Assembly: GCF_014524565.1 (NCBI RefSeq)
Contig: NZ_CP060139.1
Location: 937,501-1,001,500 of the forward strand
Length of the DNA: 64,000 nucleotides
Reading direction: 5' to 3'
Source: Croceimicrobium hydrocarbonivorans
Lineage (GTDB): Bacteria > Bacteroidota > Bacteroidia > Flavobacteriales > Schleiferiaceae
Positions within the stretch are counted from its first letter, which is position 1; each line of letters opens with the position of its first letter. The notes under the pieces were generated by a model that worked only from the letters and a program-made list of their open reading frames with translations, was not told the DNA's origin and made no database searches. Position numbers and translations under genes: made by a program. Shown here piece after piece: positions 3,697 through 44,181 of this stretch.

Positions 3697-4878
3697 TTAC
3701 TCTGCTTGTTCGAAATTGAATAACAGGGTAAAGCGCAAAGTGTTTTCGAGTGGACTGCGAACTACAGCAGAAGCTGGAATTAAATAAGCGAAATCCAATC
3801 CGAATACATTGTACTGAATACCCAATCCGATGGTATAGTATTGACGTCCCCCCTTATTAGGATCCTCATACTGGTATCCACCTCTGAAGGCAAACTTATT
3901 ATCGTACCAATATTCGGCACCGATATTAATATTGATTTCTTCCAATTCCTCGCTGGTTCCTCCAGGAGCATCATTGAAAGATTGGAATACTCCGGCGAAT
4001 GCCGATACATTATCATCTACCCCAGCAATGATCTCACCATTGTCATCCAATACCGGAGGAGTAGGTACTAAAAGTTTATTTAAATCTACGTACACCGAAA
4101 AACGGTTGTATCTATCAATATCCAAATGGTAACCACCACCTAATCGCAGGTTGGCCGGAATAAAGTCGGCACTCTCTTGAGAAGTACCATAGCTAATCTT
4201 ACCTCCTACATTGGAGATATTCAAACCCCCACTAAAACTTTGGTACTGGCCATTCCCCATCGACTTGCGATCACTCTGATAGTAGAATCCTAAATCGGCC
4301 GCCAAGGAAGAACCCGGGGTAGTTTCAATTCCGGCAGTTTGCAAACCATTGGTTAAATCGCTGTAGATAAAACGAAGGCCAACCCCCATACTAAAGTTGT
4401 TGCTCAACTTCAATCCATAGCCCGCGTTTAAAGTCATCTCATAAGGCTGACCTGTTCCTTGGGGTTGATTGTCTTGATCGCGGAAATTAATTTCTCCTAG
4501 AGAGAAGTAGCGCATGGCGATGGCCAAACCTTGCTTATCATCAAATTTAGTGGCGTAAGAAACGTGAGCTAAATTGATATCATTCACCAAACGGTTTAAC
4601 CAGGGCGTATAGCTTAAGGAAAGAGAATTGGTTCCATCCTCTAAAAAGGCCAGCTTACCGGTATTCCAATACACTGAATTTGCATCAGGCGCAGTAGCTG
4701 CACCTACGTCTCCCATACCCCCGGCACGGGCGTCTGGAGAAACGGCAATAATGGGAACAGCAACTGATATGGTGCGGAGTTCGGCGAAATAATCACCATC
4801 CCCTTTGAGATTTCCAAATTGGGCATGTAAGCCGAAAGCGCTGAAAATAAATAGGCTAAGAGCAAAAAATTGCTTCAT
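3697..4878 (-). CDS. porV: Type IX secretion outer-membrane protein PorV (LptO)
   Basis: A 393-residue FadL-like beta-barrel with an N-terminal signal peptide (MKQFFALSLFIFSAFGLHAQ) and repeated amphipathic strands ending in an aromatic terminal strand. PorV shuttles type IX cargo from the translocon to the sortase PorU. The motif ARAGGMGDVGAA near residue 51 is typical of the family. It directly follows porU on the same strand (49-bp gap), matching the conserved gldJ/porU/porV locus. Confidence 0.9.
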   Translation of the reverse strand: MKQFFALSLFIFSAFGLHAQFGNLKGDGDYFAELRTISVAVPIIAVSPDARAGGMGDVGAATAPDANSVYWNTGKLAFLEDGTNSLSLSYTPWLNRLVNDINLAHVSYATKFDDKQGLAIAMRYFSLGEINFRDQDNQPQGTGQPYEMTLNAGYGLKLSNNFSMGVGLRFIYSDLTNGLQTAGIETTPGSSLAADLGFYYQSDRKSMGNGQYQSFSGGLNISNVGGKISYGTSQESADFIPANLRLGGGYHLDIDRYNRFSVYVDLNKLLVPTPPVLDDNGEIIAGVDDNVSAFAGVFQSFNDAPGGTSEELEEININIGAEYWYDNKFAFRGGYQYEDPNKGGRQYYTIGLGIQYNVFGLDFAYLIPASAVVRSPLENTLRFTLLFNFEQAE

Positions 4879-11615: not shown

Positions 11616-12896
11616 ATGGACATCAGCAATCTTTACGATCTCTTCCTTAGCAGCACCGGCATTTGTACCGACACTAGAAAGCTGCAGAAAGGACAACTCT
11701 ATATCGCATTAAAAGGCGAGAATTTTAATGGCAATGCTTTCGCTGAAAAGGCCCTCAATGAAGGCGCCTGCGCAGCCCTTATTGATGAAGCACAATACGA
11801 AGGTCCTAATCGCATTCTGGTAGAAGATGGCTTAAAGGCCCTCCAGGAGTTAGCCCTTTTCCATCGCCGGCAATTAAAGATCCCCGTGATTGGCTTAACC
11901 GGAAGTAATGGCAAAACCACCAGTAAGGAATTAACGGTTTCCGTCCTTAAACAGAAGTTCAGGGTGGCTGCTACCGTAGGCAACCTCAATAATCATATTG
12001 GCGTACCCTTAACCCTGCTCAGCATTACCGAGGAGCATGAAATAGCGGTGGTAGAAATGGGCGCTAATGCTCAAAAGGAGATTGAATTTCTATCCAGTCT
12101 TTCCTTACCGGATATCGGCTTTATTACCAATTTCGGGAAGGCGCATTTAGAAGGTTTCGGTGGACCAGAAGGCGTAATTAAAGGCAAAAGCGAACTCTTC
12201 GAAAATCTTCGTCAACGGAATAAATTGGCTTGGGTATCGATTACAGATCCCATTCAATTGGAGCGCAGCGAAGGCATGGAACGTTGTACTTATGGCGCTT
12301 CTGAAAATGCTGACTTCCCGGTTTACCCCATCGAAAATTCAGGGAGCTTTGTAAAGGTGCATTATCAGGATCGGGAGATCCAATCGCACTTAACCGGAGC
12401 TTATAACTTTAGCAATATTGCCATTGCCATAAGTTTGGGCGCGCATTTTGGCCTTTCGGCGGATGCGATCCAAGCGGGCATTGAATCCTACCAACCCCAA
12501 AACAATCGCTCACAATTAGGCGAAGGACAACATAACCTTTTGGTAAAGGATTATTACAATGCCAATCCCAGCAGTATGGAAGCGGCCTTGAAAAACTTTG
12601 CGGAGCTCACCGAGCGCCCTCAGGACTCGAAATGGGTTATTCTCGGAGATATGTTCGAATTGGGAGATTATGAAGCAGAAGAACATCAGAAAATAGCAGA
12701 TTTGGCGCTTAGTCAAGGCTATGAAAATACCATCTTAGTAGGAAAGGCCTTTGCCGCGACGCAAGGAAATGCTGTAAAGTTCGAACAAACTGCTGCCCTC
12801 CTACCCTGGCTGGAAACGCATCTGCCGAAAGGCAAATTAATCCTGGTAAAAGGGAGCAGAGGCATGACCTTGGAGAAAGCAGCGGAATTGCTCTAA
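11616..12896 (+). CDS. murF: UDP-N-acetylmuramoyl-tripeptide--D-alanyl-D-alanine ligase
   Basis: A 426-residue cytosolic Mur ligase that adds D-Ala-D-Ala to the peptidoglycan precursor. The ATP-binding loop GLTGSNGKTTSKE is near residues 92-104, with central-domain VVEMGAN and C-terminal DYYNANPSSM. The N-terminus is short but complete (TDTRKLQKGQ uridine-site segment). The last 110 bases before the final codons (12780-12889) are repeated perfectly at 14201-14310. Confidence 0.93.
   Translation: MDISNLYDLFLSSTGICTDTRKLQKGQLYIALKGENFNGNAFAEKALNEGACAALIDEAQYEGPNRILVEDGLKALQELALFHRRQLKIPVIGLTGSNGKTTSKELTVSVLKQKFRVAATVGNLNNHIGVPLTLLSITEEHEIAVVEMGANAQKEIEFLSSLSLPDIGFITNFGKAHLEGFGGPEGVIKGKSELFENLRQRNKLAWVSITDPIQLERSEGMERCTYGASENADFPVYPIENSGSFVKVHYQDREIQSHLTGAYNFSNIAIAISLGAHFGLSADAIQAGIESYQPQNNRSQLGEGQHNLLVKDYYNANPSSMEAALKNFAELTERPQDSKWVILGDMFELGDYEAEEHQKIADLALSQGYENTILVGKAFAATQGNAVKFEQTAALLPWLETHLPKGKLILVKGSRGMTLEKAAELL
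12780..12889 (+). repeat. murF 3'-end direct repeat, copy 1
   Basis: 110 bases inside murF identical to 14201-14310. After it this copy continues GCTCTAA while copy 2 continues ATTGTAG; with the shared bases both encode Ala-Ala-Glu-Leu-Leu-stop through different codons. Confidence 0.95.
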
Positions 12897-14168: not shown

Positions 14169-14200
14169 AGGTTCGAGCAAAGTTTATAGCCTTCTTTAAT

Positions 14201-14310
14201 TTCGAACAAACTGCTGCCCTCCTACCCTGGCTGGAAACGCATCTGCCGAAAGGCAAATTAATCCTGGTAAAAGGGAGCAGAGGCATGACCTTGGAGAAAG
14301 CAGCGGAATT
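14201..14310 (+). repeat. murF 3'-end direct repeat, copy 2
   Basis: 110 bases identical to the end of murF (12780-12889), followed by TTATTGTAG completing the same C-terminus with different codons. No murF body precedes it. It ends 26 bp short of the stop codon of the convergent minus-strand gene. Confidence 0.95.
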
Positions 14311-24570: not shown

Positions 24571-24647
24571 CTACAACCTACAGTAGGGATATATCTCGCT
24601 CGGTGTAGTATATACACAACATTACTAGAGATATAAACAAGTTAGCG
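24571..24647 (+). other. Left-end attC-like or attI-like site
   Basis: CTACAAC (24571-24577) and GTTAGCG (24641-24647) bracket an inverted repeat TATATCTC/GAGATATA. It has attC geometry, but no cassette head (GTTGTAG) matching its R'' is found upstream. It is the leftmost core site, so it may be the place where new cassettes enter, or the tail of a truncated cassette. Confidence 0.45.
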
Positions 24648-25016
24648 CGCAGCGCCCACAGCACCGCAAACCTTGCGTGCTCATTTCACCGTTGTCTTGG
24701 TGGAAAACAAATCAGCGTCGTTAAAAGAATAAAATCTGGAAGCTGAGGGTTTGCGGAGAACCTTCTGGTTAAAAAATGGGCGGAGCCTAGTCCTTACCTT
24801 AAAGCAAGACTTTGAGCGCTCAATAATATCAGGACTTTAGGTGATTTCCTGGTTTTATAATAAAAATAGGTGTGGAAAGATTAAGCCGCTCGCTAACAAC
24901 ACCTATACCTTATAAGGCTACTTTCATTCCCGGTAGAAATTACGATATTTAACTGATCTATAAATCCAAAGGCATACCTAACGGCTTCACTAGTCCTTAC
25001 AAGGTATAGGCCGAAC
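24641..25016 (+). repeat. Small-ORF cassette C1 (copy 1, disrupted reading frame)
   Basis: A 376-bp cassette identical to 31654-32029 except one base (A at 24989, G at 32002), and related to 29740-30104. Compared with the latter, its small frame has a stop (TAA at 24730-24732) and a one-base deletion just after, but the downstream part (about 24751-24815, FAENLLVKKWAEPSPYLKAR) keeps the amino-acid sequence. Hairpins AGCAC-GCAA/TTGC-GTGCT and CAGGA/TCCTG could also act at RNA level. Confidence 0.85.
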
Positions 25017-27754: not shown

Positions 27755-28177
27755 ATGAAAAGAATTCTGACAATAACAATTCTTGGACTTTCAATAATAA
27801 GTTGCTCAGACAATAAGGGCGGGCTTGACGACAAAACTCAAACTTTGGAATTGACCTATATAGCCTGGGCTTGCGACTGTGCTAATTGGGCGACAAAAGA
27901 AGACCTTAACAAGTATGCTGACAATTTAGGAGACACATTAGCCAATCGAAGTATTTTCATTGAACCTGCTAACAAATCATTGGTATTGCCTGACACGCTC
28001 GGCTACAGTAATGACGTAATTAAATTCGAAGGACAATTCTACAATGAAAAAGGATTTCCGAAAAATTATCAATCTTTTGAAAACCCTGACAAAGCAAGAG
28101 TTTTTAGATACACAGGATACGAAGTAGTAAAAAGCAACTACAGGAAATATCAAGATTTTGGAACCAAAAGTGAATAA
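27755..28177 (+). CDS. Lipoprotein of unknown function (C4)
   Basis: A 140-residue lipoprotein (lipobox SIISC, Cys17). Conserved-looking features are a CDCANW motif (about 40-45) and a strand-rich middle ending in FRYTGYEVVKSNY. Proteins of this look are frequent in Bacteroidota genomes but have no function that I know. It starts 22 bp after an unusual GTAAGCC core. Confidence 0.78.
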   Translation: MKRILTITILGLSIISCSDNKGGLDDKTQTLELTYIAWACDCANWATKEDLNKYADNLGDTLANRSIFIEPANKSLVLPDTLGYSNDVIKFEGQFYNEKGFPKNYQSFENPDKARVFRYTGYEVVKSNYRKYQDFGTKSE

Positions 28178-29634: not shown

Positions 29635-29746
29635 AGCTAATGCGGTTGACGGGTAAACAGTAAATTACAAATTCTAACTAAAATCCGTCTCGGTCGACTT
29701 TAATTTGGGTTCCAAACCGGCACTAGCTTTAGCCGAGCCGTTAGCG
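29619..29746 (+). other. attC site of C6 (class G)
   Basis: R'' GCCCAAC, part of a 10-bp perfect complement to the head GTTGGGCAAC; R' GTTAGCG; arms GGCTAAAGCTA and TAGCTTTAGCC. Confidence 0.9.
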
Positions 29747-30104
29747 CGCAGCGCCGCAAACTTGGCGTGCTCACTATACCGTAGTCTTGGTGGATAACAA
29801 ATCGGTGTCATTAAAAGAAAAAAATCTGAAAAGCAGAGAGTTTGCGGAGAACCTTCTGGTTAAAAAGTGGGCGGAGCCCACGCCTTACCTTAAAGCAAAA
29901 CTCTGAGTGCTCAAGAATATCAGGACTTTGTGTGTTTCCTGGTTTTATAAATAATAATTCCAAGAAAGATTAAGCCGCTCGCTAACAACACCTATACCCT
30001 ATAAGGCTTCTATCTTACCCGGTAGAAATAACGATATTTAACAGATTACAAATCCAACGACATACCTACCGGCTTCGCAAGTCCTTACAAGGTATAGGCC
30101 GAAC
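29740..30104 (+). repeat. Small-ORF cassette C7 (diverged copy with open frame)
   Basis: A 365-bp diverged relative of cassettes C1 and C10. No conventional long gene is present in 29635-30125; the region holds an attC site, this cassette and its own attC. Confidence 0.85.
29787..29906 (+). CDS. Putative 39-residue peptide in cassette C7
   Basis: TTG at 29787 (or GTG at 29790) opens a frame ending TGA at 29904-29906: MVDNKSVSLKEKNLKSREFA, then ENLLVKKWAEPTPYLKAKL. The same amino acids, with mainly synonymous or conservative base changes, are readable in C1 and C10 despite their disruptions. The frame is open upstream back to 29745 and conservation extends there, so the true start is uncertain and may be missing. 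Confidence 0.5.
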   Translation: MVDNKSVSLKEKNLKSREFAENLLVKKWAEPTPYLKAKL

Positions 30105-31600: not shown

Positions 31601-31660
31601 CTACAACAAAACCTATACGCAATGCCCTTCGGGACACTGCGCATAGCCAAACCGTTAGCG
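31601..31660 (+). other. attC site of C9 (class A)
   Basis: R'' CTACAAC, 10-bp complement to head GTTGTAGAGC; R' GTTAGCG; arms CTATACGCAATGCCC and GGGACACTGCGCATAG. Confidence 0.92.
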
Positions 31661-32029
31661 CGCAGCGCCCACAGCACCGCAAACCTTGCGTGCTCATTTC
31701 ACCGTTGTCTTGGTGGAAAACAAATCAGCGTCGTTAAAAGAATAAAATCTGGAAGCTGAGGGTTTGCGGAGAACCTTCTGGTTAAAAAATGGGCGGAGCC
31801 TAGTCCTTACCTTAAAGCAAGACTTTGAGCGCTCAATAATATCAGGACTTTAGGTGATTTCCTGGTTTTATAATAAAAATAGGTGTGGAAAGATTAAGCC
31901 GCTCGCTAACAACACCTATACCTTATAAGGCTACTTTCATTCCCGGTAGAAATTACGATATTTAACTGATCTATAAATCCAAAGGCATACCTAACGGCTT
32001 CGCTAGTCCTTACAAGGTATAGGCCGAAC
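31654..32029 (+). repeat. Small-ORF cassette C10 (copy 3, same as C1)
   Basis: 376 bp, differing from 24641-25016 by one base. It carries the same stop and one-base deletion in the small frame, so it was duplicated after the frame broke. It sits 7 kb from copy 1 with nine cassettes between. Confidence 0.93.
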
Positions 32030-42661: not shown

Positions 42662-43233
42662 ATGAAGACAATTCACCTTGCACTAATTCTTTTGTCGGGC
42701 TTTTGACAACATCGACCAATTGTCAAAATGATAATGAAGTAAGCACAACAATTCATTCCGACCGAATTAAAATCAACTACGACTTTGAAAACCTTAGATT
42801 GTTTTTGAACTCGACTGTAACCGAAACAAAGTCACGTATCGACTGGAAATGGGATCATATGAATTCCAGAAACGGCTACCCCGACACAACTGGCATAGAA
42901 TATTTCGAGAACCGTGACCAGCCATATTTCAAGTTTGACGACCAGGTAACCTTACCTGCCCTTTCAATTATCACCGACAAGAATAAAATCATTGAGTTCT
43001 ACGCAGCGACAATTTTCACACTAGCCAAGCATGACAGGGAAACGATAATTGCCGTAATGGATAGTTTAAACCCTTATGACCTTCTAAATCAGACCGAAGT
43101 ACGACAAGCTATCCTGGAAACCTCAAGATATTATCGTGAAACCGAGAATTTTGAAGAAGAACTGATATTGGATTTAGCTGAAGAAGAATATGGATACTCT
43201 CGAATGAGTTACGAGATAAAAATTAAAAAATAA
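42662..43233 (+). pseudogene. Lipoprotein gene with frameshifted signal peptide (C25)
   Basis: ATG at 42662 gives MKTIHLALILLSGF then TGA at 42704-42706. Adding one T to the TTTT run at about 42701-42704 would join it to the open frame that follows (LTTSTNCQNDNEVS), making a lipoprotein with Cys near residue 20. The body (about 176 residues) has no recognised domain. A homopolymer sequencing error is possible; otherwise the gene is dead. Confidence 0.7.
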
Positions 43234-43240
43234 AAAGGTA

Positions 43241-43367
43241 CCCCAACAAAACCTAAAGCTCATGCGGCCTTTTCGTCTTCGGCAGACGCAGACACGGTTG
43301 ACGATGACGGTCTCAGTTCTTTAGGAACTTGCGGAAAGCCGCACTAGCTTTAGCCAAACCGTTGTGA
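43241..43367 (+). other. attC site of C25 (class G)
   Basis: R'' CCCCAAC, R' GTTGTGA; arms CCTAAAGCTCATGCGGC and GCCGCACTAGCTTTAG. Confidence 0.86.
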
Positions 43368-43375
43368 GTCATAAG

Positions 43376-44098
43376 ATGAAACTTGAAAGAAGATTTATAA
43401 CACTAATGCTCGTAATAGTTGTTGTCGACTTGGCAACCAAACTATTAGCCCTTAACACTCTGCCTTTCCAGCAGAAAATCTTTTTAATTGGTGATAAAAT
43501 AAGCTTCTATTTGACTTTCAATGAGGAAGCAACTGGTGGTCAAGCTGGTTATTTATTGGAACAAGAATTTAATAAAAACCAAACTTTAGTACTTAACGCA
43601 ATAGCAGCATTTATTCTGATAGGTTTCGTTTTCATGATCAAGAAACAGAATATCAAAAAGCTATTCAAATGGCTTATAATCATTGGCATATACATTTTGA
43701 CTAGTATAATACTTGAGCTGATCAAACCTAGCCTAAATATCGAAGTAAGTACTTGGACAGCATCTCTAGTTTCTAAAATTGCAGGAATATCCATTTACTT
43801 AACAATACTGACTTTCATCAATAATTCTCAACTGAAATTATTTTTCTGGATGGTAATTTCTGCAGGATTAGGCAACTTATTAAGTCATTTCTATTACCCA
43901 TATAGGATTGTTGACTTTATTAACATCGATGGTAGTTACGAACTTCTGAGAATAGGCGTATTCAATCTGGCAGACTTGGCTTTTGACCTTGGTATAATAG
44001 GGATATTTGTAACCCTAATTGTATTGACTGTTAACAAAATAAAATCTAAACGACTCACAACAAACGCTAAAAATGAATATGCGAACAGAGCTGACTGA
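43376..44098 (+). CDS. LspA-like signal peptidase II homologue (C26)
   Basis: A 240-residue membrane protein with the signal peptidase II motif order: VVVDLATK (Asp18), YLTFNEEATGG (Asn49), GLGNLLSH (Asn167) followed by IVDF (Asp180), and FNLAD (Asp200). Asp180 and Asp200 correspond to the catalytic pair. The usual DR after GN is replaced by SH. Longer than typical LspA because of an extra helix-rich insert. It may cleave prolipoprotein signal peptides, apt for an array full of lipoproteins. Its last 13 residues are attC-encoded; head and tail match over 10 bp. Confidence 0.82.
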   Translation: MKLERRFITLMLVIVVVDLATKLLALNTLPFQQKIFLIGDKISFYLTFNEEATGGQAGYLLEQEFNKNQTLVLNAIAAFILIGFVFMIKKQNIKKLFKWLIIIGIYILTSIILELIKPSLNIEVSTWTASLVSKIAGISIYLTILTFINNSQLKLFFWMVISAGLGNLLSHFYYPYRIVDFINIDGSYELLRIGVFNLADLAFDLGIIGIFVTLIVLTVNKIKSKRLTTNAKNEYANRAD

Positions 44099-44172
44099 AA
44101 GGACATTGCTAACAGAAAACCCATCTGCAATTAGGAATGGTGGCGCATACTCATTTTAGCTGGTCGTTGCCA
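44055..44172 (+). other. attC site of C26
   Basis: R'' TCACAAC, 10-bp complement to head GTTGTGAGTC; R' GTTGCCA; arms GCTAAAAATGA and TCATTTTAGC. It overlaps the end of the LspA-like gene. Confidence 0.88.
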
Positions 44173-44181
44173 CACATTAAA

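Follow-up and report, generated by a model that had tools for sequence, protein, structure and literature searches.

The stretch of the Croceimicrobium hydrocarbonivorans genome analysed here (64,000 nucleotides, called the window) carries a true integron gene cassette at 43362–44166, and the cassette encodes an aspartyl peptidase that is homologous to LspA and has a predicted LspA fold. The protein is not a canonical LspA. As judged by sequence, it belongs with three relatives to a rare, separate branch of LspA, of which at least four members are known here. With a probability of about 0.6, we consider it a working intramembrane aspartyl peptidase of this divergent branch of family A8, which would cleave substrates resembling prolipoproteins, would differ from the host LspA in specificity or in its response to inhibitors, and would be an accessory enzyme rather than a replacement.

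The ORF starts with an ATG at 43376 and ends with a stop codon at 44096–44098, and frame and translation of the 240 amino acids on the forward strand were confirmed. The coordinates, frame and numbering given in the original prediction (43376–44098, Asp180 in IVDF, Asp200 in FNLAD) were correct. The product matches PF01252 (Peptidase_A8) with an E value of 2.2e-12 and 47.8 bits, the curated cut-off being 25. This match consists of two stretches that overlap in their profile range (1–89 and 52–141 in the genome search), a sign of an insertion in the cassette protein. With TIGR00077 (lspA) the window protein reached 38.8 bits (E 8e-10) against a cut-off of 73.95, and none of the four clade members reached this cut-off in the profile comparison. 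The miss is uninformative, since the host LspA (57.4 bits) also stays below the cut-off, as does an LspA from a Salmonella cassette (68.5 bits). Table 1 lists the features of the cassette and its gene.

Table 1. Features of the LspA-like gene cassette; positions refer to the window.
Feature	Position	Strand	Basis
attC site upstream of the cassette, R′ = GTTGTGAG at 43361–43368	43240..43368		scan score 56.3, strongest class of the array; bottom-strand attC hairpin, z −2.66
Gene cassette, 805 bp	43362..44166	+	R′ and R″ at the two ends 8/8 complementary
attC site of the cassette itself, R″ = CTCACAAC at 44054–44061, overlapping the 3′ end of the ORF	44054..44173		scan score 28.7; folds, z −2.23
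LspA-like aspartyl peptidase, 240 aa, six predicted membrane helices	43376..44098	+	PF01252, AlphaFold2 model, comparison with PDB, four-member clade
Codons of the inserted stretch (residues ~63–134) with two extra predicted membrane helices (67–89 and 93–120)	43562..43777	+	model, pLDDT ~55–69 in this part; alignment
Codons of Ser170-His171, in place of Asp-Arg of known LspA	43883..43888	+	alignment
Codon of catalytic Asp180, in RIVDF	43913..43915	+	alignment
Codon of catalytic Asp200, in FNLAD	43973..43975	+	alignment

The sequences GTTGTGAG and CTCACAAC are exact reverse complements, as expected for the two ends of one cassette, and the ends of the next cassette (GTTGCCAC and GTGGCAAC) are likewise complementary. 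One ORF is bounded by the attC sites, its orientation is the same as that of its neighbours, and both sites fold on the bottom strand. The complementarity of 8/8 and the folding of both flanking sites confirm that the gene is carried as a cassette, as had been proposed. For the background, 37 of 841 non-adjacent site pairs reached 7/8 and 6 reached 8/8. Among neighbouring pairs 8 of 40 reached 7/8, which is a rough lower bound, and the list of 40 holds spurious internal sites (one within the LspA-like ORF) and misses real ones. The attC scan covered the window and 60 kb of flanking chromosome, with 7,500 flank bases masked. Sites with a score of at least 28 numbered 30 from 24 to 64 kb and 4 over the other 84 kb; five Markov shuffles of the whole 124 kb gave 1–4 such sites.

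The LspA-like gene lies about 18 kb into this array, between two unrelated cassettes. The search of the genome with the integron integrase model TIGR02249 (part of one flank being masked) gave no match over the cut-off, which gives the array the appearance of an attC cluster lacking an integrase; seven weak matches are all located far from the array. The statement that some fifteen cassettes of the array encode lipoproteins was about right, as 14 array ORFs pass a crude lipobox pattern. The preceding cassette (42662–43233) seems to be frame-broken, with a signal-peptide-like start in a different frame from the rest of its ORF. Within the array a 300-base repeat is present in two identical copies (24641–24940 and 31654–31953), and parts of it occur in a third, diverged copy near 29744–30046. 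Outside the array there is a 113-base repeat (12777–12889 and 14198–14310, 99% identical).

The cassette protein is homologous over both halves to solved LspA (signal peptidase II; PF01252, family A8; PDB entries 5dir, 6ryo and 6ryp), with which it shares the catalytic dyad, the D..TK motif of TM1, N49, GN, FN.AD and the predicted core fold. It differs from them in having six predicted helices instead of four, in the exchanges D109 to S, R110 to H and G102 to A, and in a rebuilt lid. Our reference was the set of 14 highly conserved LspA residues that PMC6952399 names, and 9 of these 14 are identical in the window protein. The core set D18, K22, N49, N167, F196, N197 and A199 is retained together with both catalytic aspartates, and besides the three exchanges mentioned, G54 is changed to E in the rebuilt loop and V116 to I. 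Box B and the lid that follows it read N49-E-E-A-T-G-G-Q, compared to the usual N-x-G. An insert of about 70 residues (~63–134) sits between the Asn49 box and the helix matching TM2 of known LspA and explains why the protein is longer than normal, a feature that had been noticed before. The reported change of DR to SH (Ser170-His171) also held, and since the serine is invariant in all four clade members it is a feature of the clade and no isolated oddity.

A family search with the single protein (88 genomes) gave the protein itself and two weak matches, of which the one inspected is no LspA. The phylum search with the single protein (395 genomes) gave distant matches only, the best outside match (1e-6) being an ordinary LspA, and a single-protein scan of species genomes found no match. 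The alignment-based scan of 84,980 species genomes detected a protein of Hymenobacter nitidus BT635 (44% identity over residues 3–205, E 6e-48); otherwise only ordinary LspA occurred among the matches listed, and 80 loci were kept. With a two-sequence profile, 2 of 395 genomes of the class had a match at E ≤1e-12, our own genome and one designated G1096 (2.8e-44). Two of 390 genomes were found in the order to which Hymenobacter belongs (Hymenobacter nitidus and G1245, 4.1e-71), and within the genus Hymenobacter it was 1 of 120 genomes at 1e-6.

The clade thus comprises the window protein and the three relatives from Hymenobacter nitidus, G1096 and G1245, which are 36–41% identical and score 60.6, 52.5 and 52.3 bits with PF01252, all above the cut-off. 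Pairwise identity among the four members is 28–44%. They align over the whole length with 42 invariant positions, which cluster in TM1, in box B and in the D180 and D200 regions. Invariant are D18, K22 and N49 in TM1 and box B, K94, K98 and K134 in and beside the insert, and further on N167, S170, F172, Y173, P175, D180, F181, I182, Y188, L190, R192, I193, G194, F196, N197, A199 and D200. The rewritten extracytoplasmic lid and the insert of ~70 residues are common to all four. The window and Hymenobacter proteins are 51% identical in residues 1–62, 32% in the insert (63–134) and 65% in the active-site part (161–206). The survival of the dyad at pairwise identities as low as 28–44% argues for selection on catalysis.

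At the D109 position all 106 comparison LspA rows have D, while all four clade members have S. The R110 position is R in 94 of the 106 rows (80 compact and 14 long-loop), S in 11 and G in 1; the four members have H, H, L and Y and no arginine. The lid glycine is G in 106/106 rows, and E or Q in the two clade members placed in that alignment. In a quick IQ-TREE analysis of 110 rows and 169 columns, the four members group together with an SH-aLRT of 100, and the long-loop group stands apart (99). Six of the 80 loci lacked a complete N-terminal motif and were left out, and 3 more that were short or badly started were dropped before the tree was built. Apart from the host protein, the long-loop rows (25) were selected by hand from a search whose motif filter skipped 28 of 91 loci, some of which are not LspA. 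Constraining the four members to group with the long-loop rows was not rejected (p-AU 0.855), and we therefore claim only a separate clade. A closer relation of the clade to compact LspA than to the long-loop type, as the free trees have it, was not adopted, since the constrained long-loop tree, which the unconstrained search did not reach, has the higher likelihood.

An AlphaFold2 model of the window protein, built on 52 of 75 available rows, had a mean pLDDT of 79.4 and a pTM of 0.65; values by block were 55–69 for residues 51–130 and 78–94 for most other blocks. It shows six long helices (residues 3–28, 67–89, 93–120, 127–146, 151–173 and 198–239), the extra two with low confidence. Foldseek against the PDB gave five matches below 0.001, and all of them are LspA chains (6ryo, 6ryp, 5dir; 2.7e-6 to 3.6e-5). 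VIA-align gave Z scores of 13.6, 13.5 and 13.4 to 6ryp, 6ryo and 5dir, with 155, 149 and 148 residues aligned and an rmsd of 3.2–4.2, and the next unrelated chain reached 6.7. For the separately folded Hymenobacter relative (34 rows) the Z scores to LspA entries were 16.8, 16.7 and 16.0, followed by 5.9. Both models put D180 into a strand, and D200 is predicted close to where the last helix begins, which agrees with LspA. The predicted fold thus matches solved LspA, and at the level of fold comparison no arrangement with the two aspartates apart was seen. Together with the PF01252 match this upholds the view of an LspA-type peptidase that has kept its catalytic dyad. The two-sequence profile matches 9emz and 5dir at E ~2e-4 and 6ryo weakly; in its alignment TM2 of LspA corresponds to the helix starting near residue 130, with the extra hairpin preceding it. 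From model and alignment we infer two extra membrane helices, six in total compared to the four of LspA. The lysine-rich loop between them (~92–100) would fit a cytoplasmic turn.

The 4.04 Mb genome has one other PF01252 locus (1944282–1944824), which encodes a 212-residue LspA of the long-loop type; this protein exceeds the cut-off of PRK14788, its own NCBIfam model. A survey of the order (395 genomes) gave a match in 363, nearly all of them with a single one. With a separate host LspA present, the cassette gene adds to the housekeeping enzyme and need not replace it. The host LspA also has S at the R110 position, like 11 of 26 long-loop rows, so that the loss of R110 alone is not decisive. 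The cassette gene is not a copy of the host gene, as the two fall into different tree groups and are 21% identical in a MAFFT alignment.

No match to the window protein was found in plasmids, phages or viral contigs, and viral scans with alignments or with a relative as well as plasmid searches with two relatives were empty. In Hymenobacter nitidus the gene forms an AT-rich island of about 0.8 kb (31–37% GC in 300-base windows) in surroundings of about 60–69% GC. A 10-base direct repeat (CTACACCGTA, starting at 3949 and 4750) borders the island, and the genes on either side are taken to be folK-like and fabD-like. Both flanks could be aligned in 21 of 29 further Hymenobacter loci, with a gap of 47 to 1264 bases between them, and the gaps that were inspected contain dissimilar ORFs or none. 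At the closest Hymenobacter locus (fabD 90% identical) there is a stretch of 723 bases whose ends GTTAGCGGTA and TACCGCTAAC are exact complements, followed by a 135-base attC-like hairpin that was found by eye; this stretch is very likely a cassette. The gap before fabD in Hymenobacter (L094, L176–L204) appears as a hotspot for single genes that differ from one another and are often AT-rich. At least one of them (L176, 580–1439) resembles an isolated integron cassette that has an attC-like hairpin.

In G1096 and G1245 the LspA-like gene is located among ordinary chromosomal genes, and in one relative a rhomboid protease gene of the same orientation ends 25 bases before it. When the loci of the relatives were compared, no shared neighbour apart from the LspA-like gene itself pointed to a partner. 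The attC scanner was silent at the Hymenobacter nitidus, G1096 and G1245 loci. It is tuned to the array of the window and missed the attC-like site of L176, so this silence does not show that the three genes never were cassettes. One lipoprotein-like cassette protein of the array (27755–28177) has a relative at L218 10823–11227 (40% over 103 residues), 2.4 kb from the LspA-like gene of G1096.

LspA as a cassette is already known, and the present one comes from a different, much stranger branch. The likely primary source for the lsp cassette of class 2 integrons is reportedly Barlow and Gobius 2006. When plasmids were searched with an ordinary compact LspA, 954 records matched, and the best 4 of 954 are from Salmonella. 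Two Salmonella records were inspected and show the order intI2, dfrA14, signal peptidase II, followed in one by a DUF4156-annotated lipoprotein-like gene. The ends of this lspA cassette are exact complements (R′ GTTAGTTG at 3921 and R″ CAACTAAC at 4427 of L221). At ≥99% identity its lspA was present in 75 of 72,556 plasmid records, all from Salmonella, and in none of 20,395 E. coli records. According to a review, class 2 integrons can carry such cassettes (PMC6856922), and lspA beside dfrA14 in pESI-like plasmids is mentioned in PMC11939482. In Salmonella Infantis and in our window alike, LspA is a real gene cassette. Unlike our protein, the Salmonella LspA is an ordinary compact one of 165 aa with, as read by eye, DR and the usual box B, and the two are 38% identical over just 58 columns. 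As one cassette derives from the ordinary LspA group and the other from a separate clade, LspA entered cassettes at least twice. The protein described here is therefore more unusual in architecture than the original prediction stated, and less novel as an LspA cassette. The Salmonella class 2 integron lies on plasmids of the pESI type (L221 3921–4539, CP066336.1, and L220) and holds, in this order, dfrA14, the ordinary lspA cassette and a lipoprotein-like gene that is interrupted by an in-frame stop. Here, too, an LspA cassette adjoins a lipoprotein gene, in a clinically relevant setting.

LspA3 and LspA4 of Myxococcus xanthus, encoded in the myxovirescin cluster (PMC8689077), are accessory LspA paralogues like the one described here. 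According to the same source, LspA proteins of M. xanthus complement a loss of lspA in E. coli only when lpp is absent. They lie in a biosynthetic cluster, self-protection is proposed for them, and that account does not describe them as cassettes; the genes inspected around our cassette form a cassette array and include no biosynthetic cluster for an LspA inhibitor. In Tn6362 (pbrR-zntA-lspA) an LspA is likewise found on a mobile element, there within a transposon-borne, metal-related region for which the account in PMC5955447 mentions no cassette. No description of a six-helix LspA was found in the open-licence PMC literature.

If the cassette protein is an active accessory peptidase, it would insert into the membrane with six helices and cleave its substrate by means of the two aspartates and a water molecule, as in LspA. 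The changed lid and DR position would alter what the pocket holds, and the enzyme would be added to the cell as an accessory function without replacing the host LspA. The gain may be a new substrate set or the escape from LspA inhibitors. Service to lipoproteins encoded by the cassettes, as originally suggested, would be a speculative role. Activity itself can be questioned, since the exchange R110A reduced the activity of S. aureus LspA to 0% and R110K to 50% (PMC6952399). A catalytically dead relative, acting by binding prolipoproteins or in some other way that needs no catalysis, would agree with this and with the loss of two conserved active-site residues (D109 and R110), one of them essential in S. 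aureus LspA. However, the four members, at only 28–44% identity, all retain the two aspartates and the remaining core active-site positions, and the serine of the host LspA at R110 indicates that other residues can take over the role of the arginine; R192, invariant in the clade and also common in compact LspA, is a candidate. We regard a dead enzyme as quite improbable. That the cassette is intact but silent, an unexpressed passenger deep in a long array with no integrase nearby, is also unlikely but deserves some weight: the gene is ~18 kb into the array, no integrase model exceeded the cut-off anywhere in the genome searched, and one neighbouring cassette seems frame-broken. The ORF is nevertheless intact, and at least two relatives are chromosomal and outside any recognisable array, which implies that the protein is used somewhere.

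The altered pocket allows two further explanations, both of which we consider unlikely. The protein could keep lipoprotein maturation going when globomycin- or myxovirescin-type antibiotics block the host LspA, with the drugs losing their grip at the altered DR position and lid. In S. aureus LspA, Arg110 is bonded by both antibiotics, which also lean on the flexible extracytoplasmic loop (PMC6952399); exactly these two places, the Arg110 position and the lid, have been rewritten in the clade. Additional lspA copies occur in producing organisms, and the myxovirescin cluster contains two of these (PMC8689077). The second, unrelated LspA cassette adjoins dfrA14 in class 2 integrons. On the other hand, the globomycin IC50 of the published mutants, measured with a lipoprotein substrate, fell below the wild type in all cases (PMC6952399). 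This higher sensitivity of single mutants weighs against a simple resistance reading, and the arginine change is found in the host LspA, too. The protein could instead be a repurposed A8 protease that cuts other membrane peptides and not lipobox precursors, with the inserted hairpin as a new docking face. The rebuilt box B and lid, the two added predicted helices and the position 25 bases after a rhomboid protease gene in one relative would suit this explanation, but N49, N197 and the dyad are kept, and no shared neighbour gene points to a partner.

Taking the active accessory peptidase one step further, the clade could be an undescribed six-helix branch of signal peptidase II that has spread among Bacteroidota both in cassette form and by insertion of the single gene, and that matures its own precursors or works when the ordinary LspA is inhibited. 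Such a mobile second route of lipoprotein processing is a tentative idea, which we hold possible yet on balance doubtful. LspA is the target of antibiotics, and resistance through changes in the target itself is regarded as hard to evolve, as the drugs lean on conserved residues (PMC6952399). A natural mobile relative of LspA that has kept the dyad and changed exactly these surroundings offers a direct test of this idea. The presence of two unrelated LspA groups in cassettes suggests that an extra LspA is repeatedly useful, and it is worth testing which substrates an enlarged relative with a rebuilt pocket cuts, or which drugs it resists.

A compact second LspA is found in Bacteroidota and other phyla (e.g., L048, L106), and it has the same short spacing of ~20 residues between the two aspartates as the cassette protein. 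In 12 of 16 genomes re-searched it is an extra copy beside the housekeeping LspA, a situation that also applies here. Unlike the cassette protein, these proteins mostly have 160–200 aa and no insert, and DR is present in 80/80 rows. In several compact LspA (L098, L101, L106, L156 and others) a Cys directly precedes the conserved TM1 aspartate (GC-D), and the first helix of these proteins thus itself resembles a lipobox.
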